A stretch of 64,000 nt of DNA. Origin: Alistipes sp. (GTDB lineage Bacteria > Bacteroidota > Bacteroidia > Bacteroidales > Rikenellaceae). Shown piece by piece: positions 10,705 to 56,986 of this stretch. The position numbers were made by a program, and so were the translations under genes. Every line of letters begins with the position of its first letter. Positions within the stretch are counted from its first letter, which is position 1. The stretch lies in NCBI GenBank assembly GCA_017398045.1, contig JAFQHI010000025.1:248001-312000 (forward strand), written 5' to 3'. The notes beneath the pieces are model-generated. The model did not search any database. It was not told where the DNA came from and worked only from the letters and a program-made list of their open reading frames with translations.

Positions 10705-11283
10705 ATGAATAAATGGATGATTGCTTTGGGCGTTGCTACGCTCCTGGCTATTTTTTGCTACAAGACCTACAACGGTCTGGTGGAGAAGGATGAGGCGGTA
10801 GCTACCGCATGGTCGAATGTCGAGACGCAGTATCAGCGTCGTGCCGACCTGATTCCCAACCTGGTAAATACCGTGAAGGGCTACGCGGCTCACGAGAGCG
10901 AGACCCTCGAGTCGGTCATCGCTGCCCGCTCGGCTGCCACCTCGATTAACCTGACGGCCGACGAACTTACGCCCGAGAAGATTGCCGAGTACCAGGCTGC
11001 CCAGCAACAGGTGCGTTCGGCCCTGGGTCGCCTGATTGCCATTGCCGAGAACTATCCCGACCTGAAGGCCAATCAGAACTTCCTCGAATTGCAGGCCCAG
11101 CTCGAGGGTACGGAGAACCGTATCGCGGTGGCTCGCAAGGAGTTCAACGAGATTGCCCAGGCCTATAATGTCTCGGTGCGTCGTTTCCCTGCCAACCTCG
11201 TGGCTTCGATATTCGGCTTTGAGAAGAAGGCTTACTTTGAGGCGGATGAGGCCGCGGCACAAGCACCGGTCGTGCAGTTTTAG
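10705..11283 (+). CDS. lemA: LemA family protein
   Basis: A 192-residue LemA-family protein: an N-terminal membrane anchor (about 4-20), then the helical LemA domain with the conserved stretches AWSNVETQYQRRADLIPNLV and FNEIAQAYNVSVRRFPAN. Length is normal. It follows the TPM-domain gene, and the TPM-LemA neighbourhood is widespread, which suggests a joint envelope role; the molecular function is unknown. The stop codon TAG (11281-11283) is followed at once by the 125-bp palindromic repeat described separately. Confidence 0.94.
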   Translation: MNKWMIALGVATLLAIFCYKTYNGLVEKDEAVATAWSNVETQYQRRADLIPNLVNTVKGYAAHESETLESVIAARSAATSINLTADELTPEKIAEYQAAQQQVRSALGRLIAIAENYPDLKANQNFLELQAQLEGTENRIAVARKEFNEIAQAYNVSVRRFPANLVASIFGFEKKAYFEADEAAAQAPVVQF

Positions 11284-11410
11284 TTTTTCGATTTTATAGG
11301 GCATATTTGCACTTGCTCTTGCGAGGCCTGAATGGGATGTACGACGAGTACTACCCATCCAGGCCTCACTTCGTTTAAGCACAAATCTGCTCCTCTAAAA
11401 TCAAAAAAAA
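11284..11410 (-). repeat. Long palindromic element, copy 1
   Basis: A roughly 125-bp imperfect palindrome that starts right after the LemA stop. The outer arms (GATTTTATAGGGCATATTTG and its partner ending TCTAAAATC) pair imperfectly over about 25 bp. The inner stem pairs GAGGCCTG (11323-11330) with CAGGCCTC (11360-11367), with a GTAC/GTAC stem inside. It is the reverse complement of copy 2 at 55301-55426, with paired compensatory changes. The minus strand is given because it allows G-U pairing at 11331/11359; which strand, if any, is transcribed is unknown. Confidence 0.9.
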
Positions 11411-11479
11411 TATGGTGTGGCTTAAGCACGAAATCTTCTCACCTAAAATTAGAAAGTGCGTGGCGTTTATGGTTGCTGT

Positions 11480-11582
11480 TGATTAAAGATCGCTAAAGGA
11501 AATTAAGGGTAATTAAAGGTTATTAACCCTTTAGCTACCCTTTCTCTTTAGTTGCCTTTAGTCGCCTTTAGCCACCTTTGAA
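11480..11582. repeat. Purine-arm/pyrimidine-arm intergenic repeat, copy 3
   Basis: Purine units (CTAAAGGAAATTAAGGGTAA) are followed by pyrimidine units (CCCTTTAGCTACCC, CTTTAGTTGCCTTTAGTCGC). It lies between convergent lemA and S41 peptidase genes. No classical U-tract terminator is visible in this 341-bp gap, so this element or the palindrome may serve that purpose. Nothing else was recognised in the gap. Confidence 0.75.
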
Positions 11583-11624: not shown

Positions 11625-12989
11625 TCATCGGCCTTCTCGAATCAACTTCAGCGCACATTCGAGTGCCTGATCTTTGGGAACTGCGATATTAGGCAGGGCT
11701 CCTCGATTCGGTTCTCCTTCGCGGATGCCGTAGGAGTAGAAAACCTTGTAGGGAATCGCCACCGTAAAGTGGCTATGGGGGAGTTGCTGATAGATCACAT
11801 CGCCCGTCGAGATAGCCGGGTCGCCGACCTCCTCACCAATCGCCACGCCCATTCCGAAGCGGGTGAATTCCCATGCAAATGAGGCGGCCGATGAGTAGGT
11901 ACGATGGCTCATCAAGAGGTAGCATTTCCCGTTGAAACGGACTGAATCGGGGTAGGGTTGCATCAACTGCTCCTCGGTGATGGGCGGATAGTGAATCAGC
12001 GTGTCGGGGAGCGTCAGATTACGTTGTTGGCGCACGGGCTCCGAGATGCGTTGGGTCGTGTGACTAATCCAGTGGAAGGGCTTGCTTGAAATGTAGCGAC
12101 AAATCTCATCGCCTGTGTGCGAATTGCCTCCTCCATTGCTGCGCACATCGATAATGAGGTGACGGATGTTGCGCTCACGAGCCGTCGAAAACATTTCCTT
12201 GGCAAAGTCGTTGAATCCCTTCAGCTGACAAGCATTGAAGTGGAAAAGCATCGTGCTGTCATCGAGCAGTTCATAGCTGTAAGGCGCAACTTTCTCCTGC
12301 TGTAATGCTTTGGATAACTCCTTGGCGCTCCATCCCCGGGCGTTGATTGTTTCTCTTCCTCGGACACTCTTTAGGCGCAGAGTGTATTCTCCCGTCGGAT
12401 TGAGCCACGCCATGCGGATGTTGAAAACTCCGTCGGAGAGCTGGCTGTAACGAACAAAATCTTTCTCGGTGGCAAGTTGGCGACGCATCGCCTCGATGAT
12501 TTTTTGTGCCTTGATGCCGTTGATGTGGGTGATCTCATCCCCGGCTTGATAGTGAACGTCGTCTATCTTCGCACTCTTTTTAAGAGCCAATGCGTGGGTC
12601 GTGGGGTCAATTTGTATCGCAAAGGGGAAATAGGCATTGCCCTCGACTCGGTTATAGGCATTGTTTGCAACAACGAGGTGCCCCTCGTTGAAGGGGGCGA
12701 TTAACTCCATCAGAGCGATATAGAGGTCGAATTTATTGACCGAATCCTGCTTTGCAAAGTGTTTGTGTAAGGAGGCTACATCACGCTTAAAGCTCCGCTC
12801 GGAGCGATTGGCATAGAGGTTGGGGTGGATACGCTCCATCATGTTGATCAACGTGTCGATGTCAGCGTTAGCTTGTTCGGTAGTGAGGTTGCTTGATCCG
12901 TTGTACTGAAATCGGAGACCTTGTGCCGATGCGGCCGATCCGATCAGCAGCATGAGAAGCGGTAAAAGTCGAAAAACAAGTTGTTTCAT
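11625..12989 (-). CDS. S41 family peptidase
   Basis: A secreted serine protease of the tail-specific/C-terminal processing class, about 454 residues from ATG 12989; an in-frame ATG at 12998 adds three residues. A signal peptide (LVFRLLPLLMLLIGSAASAQ) is followed by a helical N-terminal region. A degenerate PDZ-like segment includes ALKKSAKIDDVHYQAGDEITHINGIKAQ. The S41 catalytic domain has LIIDVRSNGGGN and the nucleophile motif SHRTYSSAASFAWEF, where the active Ser is one of the pair after Tyr. Export and the periplasm or outer envelope as location are inferred from the signal. It is next to a TonB-dependent receptor gene on the same strand. Its promoter contains a homopolymeric C tract (see 13012-13042). 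Confidence 0.88.
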   Translation of the reverse strand: MKQLVFRLLPLLMLLIGSAASAQGLRFQYNGSSNLTTEQANADIDTLINMMERIHPNLYANRSERSFKRDVASLHKHFAKQDSVNKFDLYIALMELIAPFNEGHLVVANNAYNRVEGNAYFPFAIQIDPTTHALALKKSAKIDDVHYQAGDEITHINGIKAQKIIEAMRRQLATEKDFVRYSQLSDGVFNIRMAWLNPTGEYTLRLKSVRGRETINARGWSAKELSKALQQEKVAPYSYELLDDSTMLFHFNACQLKGFNDFAKEMFSTARERNIRHLIIDVRSNGGGNSHTGDEICRYISSKPFHWISHTTQRISEPVRQQRNLTLPDTLIHYPPITEEQLMQPYPDSVRFNGKCYLLMSHRTYSSAASFAWEFTRFGMGVAIGEEVGDPAISTGDVIYQQLPHSHFTVAIPYKVFYSYGIREGEPNRGALPNIAVPKDQALECALKLIREGR

Positions 12990-13011
12990 GGCGTTCATAA
13001 GTTAGATTTCC

Positions 13012-22618: not shown

Positions 22619-25339
22619 ATGGCAACAACCAATAAAAAAGCCTCAAACGGCCGTCAGCGAGTGACCCGTTCCGACAGCGAAAGCGCACGTTGGATTTCGG
22701 GGCTTGTGATTATCTTTATAGCCCTGTTTATGGCCGCCTCGGTCCTCTTCTCCTACTTCTGTTGGGAGGGCGACCAGAGTGGTTTGCAACTCTCGACCGA
22801 GGAGCGTGAAACGCTGGGTGTTACGCCCGAGAATATGTGCGGCTGGCTGGGCGCACGGGTCGGTATGTGGCTGGTGGACCAATCGTTCGGTCTCTTTGGT
22901 CTGCTACTGCCCATTATCGTATTGCTGCTCGGTGTGCGGGTGATTCGCAAACGCCCCCTGCTGGTGAACCACCTCGCTTTGTCGTTGGTGTTGGTCATGT
23001 TGCTCGGGTCGCTCACGCTCGGCTTTGCTTTTGGGTCGAAGTGGAGCCTTTGTGCCTCGACCGGATGGGGTGGAGCCTTCGGTATTGAGGTGGCCAAACT
23101 GCTCCACGGCCATATCGGTGGCTTCGGTACGGTGATTTTGCTCTTGGGCGGTTGGATTTTGACCGGTGTCTTTATCAATCGCAACTTTATCAATATGGTG
23201 AACGATGCCACTACCGTCCTGGTCGATAAGGGCGGTCAGGTGGTGGACCTGTTGCGCCACCGCGACGAGGCGAACGAACAACTTCAGGAAACGATTGAGG
23301 AGGAGACTGACGATGAGCCGATTGCACCGAAACGGGTGGCAACAAAACCGGCACCCCGACCGGTTGTGGAGCCGGCTCCCGAACCGCAACCCGAGCAGCA
23401 ACCCGAGATGCGCGTTTCGCAGCCCGAATCGCGTCCTACGTTGCAGGAGGCCGTGAAACGTGAGCTGACGGAGGAGAACCCCTTCGAGGTGGTCGATTTG
23501 TCGCAGAAAAAGGCCGAACAACGGGTCGTGATGGGTGCAGGCGGTCTGGTGGAGTTGGAGCGTCCGAGGGTGATAAAAGATGGCCCCTTCGAGGAGATTG
23601 ATTTGTCGCCCCGCGTAGAGACGCCCCCCGTCGAGGAGCCGAAGCCCGTTGTTGAGGTGCCTACGGAGGGTTTCGAGTTAATCGAGGAGCCGAAGCAACC
23701 CGCTATTCAACCTGCCGTTCAGCCCGCGCAACAGCCCGCAACGCCGGCTGTCGAGAGCGAGGGACTTGTGGTGGTGGTCCGCGAACCGAAAGAGGAGGAG
23801 GCGGCCAAGCAGGTCTCCGAGTTGTACGACCCCACGAAGGACCTGTTGAACTACAAAAAGCCCCCCTTCGCGCTGTTGGAGGACTACCAGTCCGATTCCG
23901 AGGTGTCGGAGGATGAGATTTTCGAGAATAAGTGCAAAATCGAGGATACGCTCAAGACCTTCGGTATTCCGATTCAGAAGATTAAGGCCACGGTAGGCCC
24001 GACGGTAACCCTCTATGAAATCGTACAGGCGCAGGGTGTGAAGATTGCCAAGATTCAGGGCCTCGAGCAGGATATTGCCCAGAGTCTGAAGGCTTCGGGT
24101 ATCCGTATCATCGCCCCCATTCCGGGCAAGGGTACGATTGGTATCGAGGTGCCGAATCGCAACAAGCGCATCGTCTCGATGTACTCAGCCATCCGCTCAA
24201 AGCGTTTCCACGAAACGAAGGCCGAGTTGCCCGTAGTTATCGGTCGCACGATTCAGAACGAAAACTACGTCTTCGACCTGGCCAAGATGCCCCACTTGTT
24301 GGTGGCCGGTTCGACCGGTACGGGTAAGTCGGTGGGTCTGAATGCAATTATCACCTCGCTTTTGTATCGCAAGCACCCCTCGGAGTTGAAATTGGTGATG
24401 ATTGACCCCAAGATGGTCGAGTTCTCGCTCTACGGGAAATTGGAGCGTCACTTCCTGGCCAAGATGGAGTCCGAAGATAAGGTGATTATCACCGACCCGA
24501 TGAAGGCGGTCTATACGCTCAATTCGCTCTGTACGGAGATGGAGAGCCGTCTGGAGTTGTTGAGCCAGGCCGGTACGCGCAACATCGTGGAGTATAACCA
24601 GAAATTTACGGCTCGCAGACTGAACCCCGAGAAGGGACACCGCTTCCTGCCCTATGTGGTGGTCGTGATTGATGAGTTTGCCGACCTGATTATGATGGCC
24701 AAGGAGGTGGAGCGTCCCGTGATGCGTTTGGCGCAGAAGGCCCGTGCCGTGGGTATTCACCTGATTGTCGCCACGCAGCGTCCCGACGTGAAGGTCATCA
24801 CGGGTGGTATCAAGGCCAACTTCCCCGCCCGCATTGCCTTCCGTGTGATTCAGATGATTGACTCGCGCACGATTCTCGACCGTCCGGGAGCCGAACAGCT
24901 CATCGGTCGCGGTGATATGCTCTTCTCGCTCAATGGCGATGTGACCCGTGTGCAGTGTGCGCTGGTCGAAACCGAGGAGGTAGAACGCATCGTGGACCAC
25001 ATCTCGAAACAGCAGGGCTACACCTCGGCCTACCTCCTGCCCGACTTTGTACCGGAAGGGGGCGAGGGTGCGATGGGTAGCGAGGAGCAGGATATGGCCC
25101 CCAAGAAGTATGACTCGCTCTTTGCCGAGATTGCCCGCGATGCGGTGATGAACGGCTCGATATCGACCTCGATGATTCAGCGCAATTATGAGGTGGGCTT
25201 CAACCGTGCGGGACGCATCATGATGCAGTTGGAACGCGCCGGTATTGTGGGGCGTGCGCAGGGTGCCAAACCGCGCGATGTGCTGTTCCACGACTCGCCC
25301 TCGCTCGAGGCGAAGTTGCAGGAGCTGGGGCTGTTTTAG
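22619..25339 (+). CDS. ftsK: DNA translocase FtsK
   Basis: A 906-residue septal DNA pump that segregates chromosome termini. The N-terminus has four or five membrane helices (about 18-190). A Pro/Glu-rich linker follows (about 205-400) with repeats such as EPAPEPQPEQQPE. Then come the alpha/beta motor with Walker A GSTGTGKS (564-571), Walker B in VVVIDEFADLI, and the ATQRPDVKVITGGIKANFPARI signature. The C-terminal winged-helix gamma domain (SISTSMIQRNYEVGFNRAGRIM) reads the orienting DNA sequence. The ATG at 22619 is preferred over the in-frame GTG at 22587-22589 region, since it gives the polar start MATTNKKASNGRQ. lolA follows after about 94 bp, a common Bacteroidetes order. Confidence 0.95.
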   Translation: MATTNKKASNGRQRVTRSDSESARWISGLVIIFIALFMAASVLFSYFCWEGDQSGLQLSTEERETLGVTPENMCGWLGARVGMWLVDQSFGLFGLLLPIIVLLLGVRVIRKRPLLVNHLALSLVLVMLLGSLTLGFAFGSKWSLCASTGWGGAFGIEVAKLLHGHIGGFGTVILLLGGWILTGVFINRNFINMVNDATTVLVDKGGQVVDLLRHRDEANEQLQETIEEETDDEPIAPKRVATKPAPRPVVEPAPEPQPEQQPEMRVSQPESRPTLQEAVKRELTEENPFEVVDLSQKKAEQRVVMGAGGLVELERPRVIKDGPFEEIDLSPRVETPPVEEPKPVVEVPTEGFELIEEPKQPAIQPAVQPAQQPATPAVESEGLVVVVREPKEEEAAKQVSELYDPTKDLLNYKKPPFALLEDYQSDSEVSEDEIFENKCKIEDTLKTFGIPIQKIKATVGPTVTLYEIVQAQGVKIAKIQGLEQDIAQSLKASGIRIIAPIPGKGTIGIEVPNRNKRIVSMYSAIRSKRFHETKAELPVVIGRTIQNENYVFDLAKMPHLLVAGSTGTGKSVGLNAIITSLLYRKHPSELKLVMIDPKMVEFSLYGKLERHFLAKMESEDKVIITDPMKAVYTLNSLCTEMESRLELLSQAGTRNIVEYNQKFTARRLNPEKGHRFLPYVVVVIDEFADLIMMAKEVERPVMRLAQKARAVGIHLIVATQRPDVKVITGGIKANFPARIAFRVIQMIDSRTILDRPGAEQLIGRGDMLFSLNGDVTRVQCALVETEEVERIVDHISKQQGYTSAYLLPDFVPEGGEGAMGSEEQDMAPKKYDSLFAEIARDAVMNGSISTSMIQRNYEVGFNRAGRIMMQLERAGIVGRAQGAKPRDVLFHDSPSLEAKLQELGLF

Positions 25340-55095: not shown

Positions 55096-55122
55096 CCTTA
55101 ATTCGAGGACGGAAAGGGATTA

Positions 55123-55235
55123 ATGATATTAAAGAGGTTAAGGAGATTAAAGAGATTAAAGAGATTAAAGAGATTAAAGAGATTAAGGGGATTAAGGAGA
55201 AATTCTTTAATATCATTAATTTCATTAAGGTCATT
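55123..55235. repeat. Purine-arm/pyrimidine-arm intergenic repeat, copy 9
   Basis: Five tandem AAAGAGATT units flanked by GGTTAAGGAG and GGGGATTAAGGAG, then a weaker pyrimidine arm (CTTTAATATCATTAATTTCA). No gene was recognised in the 370-bp gap 55057-55426 apart from this repeat, the hairpin at 55283 and the palindromic element. Confidence 0.8.
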
Positions 55236-55282
55236 ATTTCATCAGCTCCACGCCCGTTTTTTCTGTCAAACTCTACGCAAAG

Positions 55283-55306
55283 GCCCGTTCTTAACGGGCT
55301 TTTTTT
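55283..55306 (+). terminator. Orphan plus-strand terminator hairpin
   Basis: GCCCGTT-CTT-AACGGGC followed by TTTTTTT. It has the right form for plus-strand termination, yet both neighbouring genes are on the minus strand. Confidence 0.6.
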
Positions 55307-55426
55307 GATTTTAGAGGAGCAGATTTGTGCTTAAACGAAGTGAGGCACGGATGGGTAGTACTAACGTACGTCCCATTCGTGCCTCGCAAGGGCAAGTGCA
55401 AATATGCCCTATAAAATCGAAAAAAA
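55301..55426 (+). repeat. Long palindromic element, copy 2
   Basis: Begins right after the stop of the minus-strand peptide transporter gene (seen from that strand). The inner stem is GAGGCACG/CGTGCCTC, where copy 1 has GAGGCCTG/CAGGCCTC: two base pairs changed on both sides. GATGGG/CCCATT and GTAC/GTAC inner pairs are kept, while the loop is shorter by one base. The outer arms match copy 1 closely. Confidence 0.9.
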
Positions 55427-56986
55427 CTACTTGGTTACGCGCTCAAGCCACTTCACCATACCCAGCATTACGCCCATCGAAACGAGGCAGACAACGAGGA
55501 ATACGGTCCAGCACTGCCAGATGGGCCATGCGTTGTACATCAGCGGACCTACCCAGAGCATCAGGTTACCGAGAGCCGTGGCACCGAGCCACAGACCCTG
55601 GCACAGACCCAGCAGGTGCTTGGGAGCCACCTTCGATACGAACGAAAGACCCAGCGGCGAGATGAACAACTCGGCCACCGTGAGGAAGAAGTAAACGGCA
55701 ATCAGTACCCACCAGTGTGCCTTACCGGCCATCTGCTCGGCAATCGGGAGAGCCTTGTAGGCGTCGGCCGAGGGATAACCTGCGATGAGCGAGTAGATAG
55801 CCAGGAACAAGAAGGCCAAACCGGCGATGAACATACCGATAGCAATCTTACGCGGGGTCGAAATCTCCTTGCCACGACGTGCCAAAGCACCAAAGATAGC
55901 CATGATGACGGGCGTAAGGACAATCACGAAGAAGGGGTTGATGGCCTGCCATACCTCGGGAGCTACGGCCGACGAATCGACGAAGTCGCGGGCGAAGAAC
56001 GAGAGCGACATACCGTTCTGGTGGAACGAGAACCAGAAGAAAATCACCACGCCCAGCACGGCGAAGAGGGCATACAGACGCTGTTTAATCTCCTTGGCGG
56101 CAGCAGCTTTCTCCTCGGCGGTGTACTCCACCGACGCCACCTTGGCCTTCTTGGCCGGCGTGGGGAACATTTGCTGCGAGAGGAAGAAAATCACAAGCGA
56201 GATGAGCATAGCCACCACCGAAGCGATGAACGAGTAGTGGATACCCTCGTTGAAGATTTGCAGATACTGCTGGCACGAAGCGGCCATATCGGCAATGTTA
56301 CCACCGGCCTCGGTCATGAGCTGCTGCAAGTTGGCAAGAGCCTCGGGAGCCATGGCGGCGGCACCGTTGATGAACTCATGGCAGAGGGCGGGCAGCTGTG
56401 CGTTATAGACCATGCCGTTGGTCTCCAGCCACCACGAACGCAGCAACGGAGCTACGAAGGGGGCAATCAGACCACCCACGTTGATGAAGACGTAGAAAAT
56501 CTGGAACCCCGAGTCGCGCTTGCTCTTGGCCTCTGCGAGTGCCTCGGGGCTAACCTTGGCAGCCTCGGCCTCCAGGTTGTCGTACATCTGACCGACGATG
56601 GCTTGCAGGTTGCCCTTGAACAGACCATTACCGAAGGCAATGAGGAACAAGGCAAAGCAGGTGAAAATCAGGAGCCAGGTCGTATTGCCGGCCGTAGCCA
56701 GAATCGGAATCGAGAGCAACACGTAACCAGTAGCCATCACCACCAGACCCGACTTAATCGTGGCCTTGTAGTTCTGCGTGTGGTCGGCAATGTAACCGCC
56801 CACCAGCGCCAAAAGGTAGATACCTGCATAGAATACCGAATAAATCGTACCGCTGACAGCCTCGTTCAAACCGAACTTCGAGCAGAGGAACAGCACGAGA
56901 ACAGCGTTCATAATATAGTAGCCGAAACGCTCACCCATATTACTCAACGCGGCGGCCAAAAGGCCTTTGGGGTGTCCTTTGAACAT
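55427..56986 (-). CDS. POT-family peptide/MFS transporter
   Basis: A 519-residue proton-coupled oligopeptide transporter. The POT signature with the proton-coupling motif ERFGYY lies in TM1 (about 19-24, NMGERFGYYIMNAV). The FGNGLFKGNLQAIVGQMYD stretch is the second family signature. Fourteen or so hydrophobic helices can be traced. An insertion (about 185-250, MVYNAQLPALCHEFINGAAAM and following) sits in a central loop and looks lineage-specific. Likely substrates are di- and tripeptides. It ends directly against palindromic element copy 2. Confidence 0.92.
   Translation of the reverse strand: MFKGHPKGLLAAALSNMGERFGYYIMNAVLVLFLCSKFGLNEAVSGTIYSVFYAGIYLLALVGGYIADHTQNYKATIKSGLVVMATGYVLLSIPILATAGNTTWLLIFTCFALFLIAFGNGLFKGNLQAIVGQMYDNLEAEAAKVSPEALAEAKSKRDSGFQIFYVFINVGGLIAPFVAPLLRSWWLETNGMVYNAQLPALCHEFINGAAAMAPEALANLQQLMTEAGGNIADMAASCQQYLQIFNEGIHYSFIASVVAMLISLVIFFLSQQMFPTPAKKAKVASVEYTAEEKAAAAKEIKQRLYALFAVLGVVIFFWFSFHQNGMSLSFFARDFVDSSAVAPEVWQAINPFFVIVLTPVIMAIFGALARRGKEISTPRKIAIGMFIAGLAFLFLAIYSLIAGYPSADAYKALPIAEQMAGKAHWWVLIAVYFFLTVAELFISPLGLSFVSKVAPKHLLGLCQGLWLGATALGNLMLWVGPLMYNAWPIWQCWTVFLVVCLVSMGVMLGMVKWLERVTK

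Follow-up and report, generated by a model that had tools for sequence, protein, structure and literature searches.

The stretch of Alistipes sp. DNA analyzed here (the window; 64,000 nucleotides, positions 248,001 to 312,000 of contig JAFQHI010000025.1) carries two inverted copies of a palindromic element, one behind lemA and the other behind a putative gene for a POT-type transporter (Table 1). The original prediction described this pair accurately. Copy 1 can be aligned with the reverse complement of copy 2 from end to end, and the palindrome of each reaches both of its ends. Each copy immediately follows a stop codon, two stem pairs have changed on both sides (GAGGCCTG/CAGGCCTC versus GAGGCACG/CGTGCCTC), and the loops differ by a one-base indel (GTACGACGAGTAC versus GTACGTTAGTAC). 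Both strands of both copies fold better than shuffled sequences (z -7.9 to -11.9, with none of 200 shuffles as stable in any of the four folds), and the window holds two occurrences of a 25-mer of the arm, where 0 would be expected; these values rule out a chance palindrome.

Table 1. Features at the two copies of the element, in positions of the window (R1 and R2 are the covariance models described in the text)
Feature	Position	Strand	Remarks
lemA ORF	10705..11283	+	Stop codon TAG at 11281-11283; from the ORF list; same C-terminus in relatives without the element
Element copy 1	11284..11410	+	Abuts the lemA stop; same orientation as the gene (A); R1 match 11285-11408 on the minus strand, 127.4 bits; R2, 83.2 bits
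Right-arm remnant of another subfamily	11421..11455	+	AAGCACGAAATCTTCTCACCTAAAATTAGAAA, the right arm of the L201/L202 element; downstream of copy 1
Degenerate (AAAGG..)n / (CCTTT..)n array	11480..11580		Similar arrays trail several other copies
Short terminator-like hairpin	55283..55299	-	GCCCGTTAAGAACGGGC; abuts the far end of copy 2; the module also trails the L005 copy
Element copy 2	55301..55426	-	Directly after the POT stop; R1 match 55301-55423 on the plus strand, 126.3 bits; R2, 78.5 bits
Putative POT-type transporter ORF	55427..56986	-	Stop codon at 55427-55429; from the ORF list; name from the original prediction

The degenerate array behind copy 1 has a counterpart at 55120-55240. 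These arrays take the form (AAAGGnnnCT)n/(AGnnnCCTTT)n or (ATTAAGGAG)n/(CTCCTTAAT)n, appear by eye as large imperfect palindromes and may serve as terminators. A peptidase-like ORF (S41 type by eye) at 11625-12998 separates lemA from a TonB-dependent-receptor-like ORF in the window; in two relatives, G024 and G020, a receptor-like C-terminus comes after lemA within the stretch examined.

The two copies are members of a genus-specific family of structured repeats, proposed 3'-boundary elements, most of which lie at the stop codons of ordinary genes. Two covariance models were built. R1 (alignment A3) comprises 23 full copies from the genome that contains the window, and R2 (alignment A4) comprises 32 copies from four other species (G003, G011, G017, and G022) whose arms are quite different from those of the own genome; 40 copies had been fetched for R2, and 8 with differently built arms were omitted before alignment. 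In the own genome of 2.36 Mb, R1 finds 24 strong full-length copies (antisense-strand matches of at least 85 bits), besides weaker matches and the opposite strands of the same palindromes. A DNA search of this genome gave 39 matches, 19 of them spanning nearly the whole query; they include full copies, partial copies, and short chance-level matches, and longer elements with diverged ends, such as an autonomous transposon sharing the terminal repeats, could escape such a search. Trained on other species, R2 recovers the copies of the own genome with 14 matches at E values of 1.8e-21 to 1.7e-14 and two weaker ones.

Beyond the own genome, R1 matches 15 of the 24 other genus genomes in a first set of relatives and none of 16 genomes of other families. 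R2 matches 92 of 151 sampled genus genomes, the own genome included, in a search that lists at most 21 matches per genome, and none of 197 genomes of other genera, one of which is listed as belonging to the same family; searches spanning more than 40 genomes used stricter filters, by which weak matches are lost. The number of R2 matches at an E value of 1e-10 or better ranges from 1 to at least 82 per genome among 40 chosen carriers, and both these counts and the R1 match counts in the first set of relatives may include both strands of each palindrome, so they are not copy numbers. The 60 fetched copies were chosen among the R1 matches listed for the first set rather than from all matches. The recurrence that the original prediction had called for is thus seen both within the genome and across the genus. 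The closest LemA among named genomes is that of Alistipes sp. isolate RGIG8565 (water deer); it is 98% identical across residues 13-192, and an element follows lemA there too. Phage and plasmid records contain no stretch similar to copy 1, the only copy used as a query there. The sole match in the window at the Rfam gathering score is a tRNA; the element itself gave only seven matches far below the gathering score, and four further element loci gave none, so a known Rfam RNA was dropped from consideration. A literature search, with supplements outside its reach, returned no earlier description of this Alistipes hairpin family; its conserved fold and its position against stop codons suggest a gene-end element that is little known.

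Placement at gene ends is precise and one-sided. In the own genome, 18 of the 24 placed copies start -3 to +7 nt from the stop codon of an ORF (2 of 26 loci could not be placed). Across eight genomes, 56 of 83 copies start within -3 to +12 nt of the stop codon that ends an ORF of 100 codons or more, 33 of them at distance 0, and a stop on the opposite strand is equally near the other end in only 1 of 83. Further species, each represented by its best R2 match (1 of 23 was lost, and seven additional loci, L410-L416, were not used), give the same picture, with 20 of 22 copies at a stop codon and 0 of 22 at the opposite end. The gene-end placement claimed in the original prediction therefore stands with an opposite-end control. 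Of the 27 copies outside the range, five sit 130 to 144 nt beyond a stop, and at least one of them (L054) is a second tandem copy. At lemA and other loci, relatives without the element stop at the same codon, and the protein ends appear to be native at filled sites. By crude ORF calling, the next long ORF is codirectional behind 41 of the 83 copies and convergent behind another 41, and the element is therefore not simply a terminator.

The stop codon's third base closes the hairpin in about half of the copies. In 44 of 83 copies the stop codon directly abuts the core (one of 84 copies was lost from this analysis for want of a TTT/AAA anchor), and 43 of these 44 show Watson-Crick pairing of its third base with the nucleotide that follows the opposite arm (A-T in 31, G-C in 12). 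The combinations of stop codon and partner are TAA-T in 24 copies, TAG-C in 12, TGA-T in 7, and TAG-A in 1, the last being the lemA copy of the window and the sole exception. Shuffling within genomes gave a mean of 32 paired copies and a maximum of 41 in 10,000 shuffles. In the further species the third base is paired in 17 of 18 copies (the exception is TAA with C), a count that is not independent because the outermost pairs are part of R2; the 83 copies, by contrast, were selected with R1, which lacks that base. At the L047 locus, the stop codon and its partner differ jointly, being TAG-C in the window genome and TGA-T in G043, and G024 has TGA with a mismatched G. No clear pairing of the middle base of the stop codon is seen. 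The POT copy has two T residues between the stop codon and the core, so third-base pairing is not seen there.

The element is a long hairpin with an outer helix of about 10 bp, an internal loop, middle helices, a large internal loop, and a conserved apical GGATGGG..CCCATTC helix, and its core measures 108 to 127 nt in 83 copies. A box C/D-like k-turn (GTGATAA/CTGA in divergent subfamilies) was dropped on inspection, given a symmetrical internal loop and the absence of the motif from the own subfamily. In A4, 97.2% of cells pair and 32 of 46 pairs change on both sides; in A3 the corresponding values are 95.5% and 20 of 40, and the structures were derived from these same alignments, which favors the percentages paired. 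The covariation score is 0.558 for A4 (0.177 when shuffled, below 0.10 when slid) and 0.353 for A3 (0.116 and below 0.09), and the slid controls retain the relatedness of the sequences yet score far lower.

The same fold is conserved where it stands. Orthologous copies with the same arms, compared between two species at 11 loci, differ by 31 substitutions in 1342 sites (2.3%), while the adjoining gene ends at 10 of these loci differ at 222 of 1775 sites (12.5%). Unpaired sites of these copies change sevenfold more often than paired ones (7.0% versus 1.0%), with 20 of the 31 substitutions falling on unpaired positions (287 of 1345; p 2.7e-7). In the 80 nt downstream of the copies, 116 of 746 aligned sites differ and there are 748 gap columns (14 comparisons at 11 loci, not all independent). 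The fold is thus maintained across copies and in place between species, and both the compensatory nature of the stem changes and the selection on the fold proposed in the original prediction are supported, by covariation across copies and by the lower substitution at paired sites of orthologs. That orthologous copies diverge so little looks like the effect of constraint in place; gene conversion could partly account for it, because a hybrid copy in G043, described below, shows recombination between subfamilies.

The antisense (B) strand folds better than the mRNA (A) strand in 83 of 84 copies and in 22 of 23 copies from further species, and the one own copy with a better mRNA-strand fold may have had its orientation misread by the script. 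The antisense strand folds better because it has conserved G.U pairs, which are A.C mismatches in the mRNA; one such G.U pair is fixed in all 32 sequences of A4. This argues for a folded antisense strand, as RNA or as single-stranded DNA. On the other hand, a stop codon belongs to the mRNA, and recent pair substitutions do not favor the antisense strand: 11 of them at pairs keep the A-strand pair in 7 cases and the B-strand pair in 5.

The ends of the genes that carry 19 of the copies were followed, without a species tree, in five relatives. These ends are filled in some relatives and empty in others. G054 has the least similar LemA of the five (82%); none of the 17 ends traced there looks filled, and its one R2 match lies elsewhere. 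The lemA end is filled in the window genome, G043, and G020 and empty in G024, G008, and G054, where a hairpin followed by T is present (the script picked this up in G024 and G008; in G054 it was spotted visually). At the POT gene, one arm type is common to the window genome and G020; two further types occur in G043 and G008; G024 and G054 have no element there. The window's lemA copy shares its loop with the copy in G043 and G020 and has different arms; a right arm like theirs remains downstream (the remnant in Table 1), and its subfamily is still whole at lemA in those two genomes. Copy L287 of G043 is a hybrid, with left and inner arms of one subfamily, the outer right arm of another, and a mismatched outer helix. 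Relative to the arms, the apical hairpin is inverted in L284 (G020) and L301 (G008) compared with most copies examined, and several loci carry extra right halves in tandem. From these sequence comparisons we infer that gain through copying would explain both the presence or absence of the element and the differences between arms. Regarding the small mobile palindrome that had been proposed, the presence/absence pattern and the differing arm types at one site favor spread by copying, and no mobilizing enzyme was found in the three enzyme families searched.

On contig 55 of G000 (23752-24183), tandem right halves of different subfamilies (L014, L021, and L022), each with a tail, lie behind one full copy, an array that looks like polar growth with the newest copy at the stop codon. 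At the end of the L053-locus gene (DnaJ-like by eye), all that G043 retains is the mini-hairpin CCGTTGATTTTAGGCTAAAATCAACGG (L259), the arm of which overlaps the gene's final codons. At the L050, L051, and L053 loci, the spacer before the next gene often contains another repeat, AT-rich and AATTTTGAATTCTAAATTTTGAATT-like.

Terminator-like signals occur within 100 nt of the stop codon at 0 of 49 filled and 18 of 47 empty ends as filed by the script, which left out L038 and stretches shorter than 150 nt. After five sites misfiled as empty had been moved by eye (G043 and G020 at lemA and three others, one of them truncated; the L053 mini-hairpin in G043 stays filed as empty), the counts are 0 of 54 and 18 of 42. 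Within 350 nt they are 10 of 49 and 25 of 47, as filed. The hairpin is followed by a U-tract on neither strand; instead, a T-tract precedes it and an A-tract follows it in both directions, and a plain intrinsic terminator was rejected for want of a U-tract. The role in termination or stability suggested by the original prediction thus gains only indirect backing, from the signals at empty orthologs, and no help from the ends of the hairpin itself.

The best reading, to which we assign a probability of roughly 0.45, is a selected, REP-like 3'-boundary element that spreads by copying. The folded element would act in cis at the 3' boundary of the gene, replacing an ordinary terminator or working beside it. 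It might block traffic across the gene end, be it 3'-5' decay, read-through, antisense transcription, or the terminating ribosome, the last option being modeled on REPs within 15 nt of a stop codon, which are reported to stall ribosomes in the portion of PMC12306157 available to us. The copying process would set the stop-codon end precisely and the other end loosely. It is the functional step of this 3'-boundary reading that we infer.

It is possible, if rather doubtful, that the family is instead a mobile single-strand hairpin, its folded B strand being the substrate of some recombinase or transposase that inserts at stop codons, in the manner of IS200/REP hairpins or integron attC bottom strands, with the fold kept since only foldable copies multiply. 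The better fold of the B strand and its fixed G.U pair would suit such an element, as would gene ends that hold a copy in one species but not in its relatives, the variety of arms at a single site, tandem right halves, and the precise stop-codon end. The search for enzymes, which covered the Y1 transposase, integron integrase, and reverse transcriptase families, speaks against it. PF01797 (Y1 transposase) occurs in none of 25 genus genomes, while 13 of 16 genomes of the order's other families have one, and a RAYT/IS200 mobilizer was rejected on its absence from these 25. No integron integrase (TIGR02249) scores above the cut-off in 25 genus genomes, where general tyrosine recombinases appear only below it; the sole integrase above the cut-off belongs to another family. 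PF00078 (reverse transcriptase) is absent from the own genome and several high-copy genomes (absences in G000, G008, G011, G017, G020, G021, G022, G024, and G043) and is found in 20 of 61 genus genomes, including G002, G007, and G014, which have no R2 match; a reverse transcriptase partner was rejected because these enzymes do not track the element. Direct repeats of at least 3 nt, such as the target-site duplications of a MITE would leave, flank 3 of 83 copies, against a shuffled mean of 2.0, as counted in the flanks of the copies themselves. The constraint on copies in place and the choice of in-frame stops would also go unexplained. Combining insertion with function, a new class of hairpin might insert at the last base of in-frame stop codons, recognized via translation termination or the mRNA; insertion would be polar, older copies would be left as downstream right-half remnants, and the hairpin would then take over 3'-end duties and be kept by selection. 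We consider this combination unlikely.

Transcription of the antisense strand into a noncoding RNA, with its 3' end against the neighboring gene's stop codon, would account for the better RNA fold of the B strand and for its conserved noncanonical pairs. We give it only a slim chance, as the B side of the copies inspected by eye shows no conserved promoter-like sequence, codirectional next ORFs make up about half of the cases, and the recent pair substitutions keep the A-strand pair more often than the B-strand pair. Inverted apical hairpins and exchanged arms indicate that template switching or recombination may operate, and in a neutral repeat template switching between the arms could keep the symmetry by mutation, without selection. 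Such arm-to-arm correction should, however, erase fixed mismatches and G.U pairs, which are conserved; orthologous copies diverge less than the coding DNA beside them, and the stop-codon placement would be left unexplained, all of which makes a neutral repeat very improbable. We hold out just as little hope for ordinary bidirectional intrinsic terminators: copies do occupy the place of terminator-like signals in some empty orthologs, but the T-tract precedes and the A-tract follows the hairpin in both directions, and copies also lie between codirectional ORFs with short spacers.

Among known systems, ERIC sequences are imperfect palindromes of about 127 bp in enterobacteria, extragenic and with no known mobilizer. 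They resemble the Alistipes elements in length, imperfect palindromy, and extragenic position and differ in phylum. To our knowledge, neither stop-codon anchoring nor strand-biased covariation is known for ERIC. Integron attC sites sit behind the stop codon of a gene. Both they and the Alistipes elements are imperfect palindromes behind a gene with the antisense strand as the better folder, the folded strand of attC being the bottom (antisense) strand according to the accessible text of PMC8876359. In contrast to attC, RYYYAAC/GTTRRRY boxes are present in 0 of 83 Alistipes copies (outer 30 nt, either strand), and lemA keeps its TonB-type neighbor with or without the element. With no boxes in these copies and no integrase above the cut-off in 25 genus genomes, an integron attC site was rejected. 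Palindromic structured-RNA candidates of 106 to 132 bp (HMP2_1032, HMP2_4205, and others) are described near TonB or TPR genes of Bacteroidetes and predicted to be Rho-independent terminators in the accessible part of PMC8040213; by description, that set could include the Alistipes family.

The REPs of E. coli and other bacteria, which are associated with RAYTs, are likewise palindromes repeated outside genes, and some of them adjoin stop codons. As far as the accessible text of PMC3733652 goes, a REP is a palindrome of 20 to 40 bp, and GTAG REPs often supply the stop codon of flanking ORFs. The Alistipes core, in contrast, measures 108 to 127 nt, has a multi-loop covarying fold, and pairs with the third base of a native stop codon. 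The family is also without a Y1 transposase in the 25 genus genomes, and a fixed end tag such as GTAG or CGTC was not seen in the copies inspected; the stop codons that abut the core in 44 of 83 copies are TAA in 24, TAG in 13, and TGA in 7. Palindromes dispersed through bacterial genomes are nothing rare, but it is unusual for copies to lie against the exact end of a coding sequence, for the last base of the stop codon often to fall within the pairing, and for the fold to be visibly constrained in place. Matched in 92 of 151 sampled species of the genus, the family offers, in its filled and empty orthologous gene ends, a natural experiment on 3'-end definition in Bacteroidota, and it bears on how a short hairpin without a recognized transposase can reach stop codons, which touches on where REPs and integron cassettes came from.
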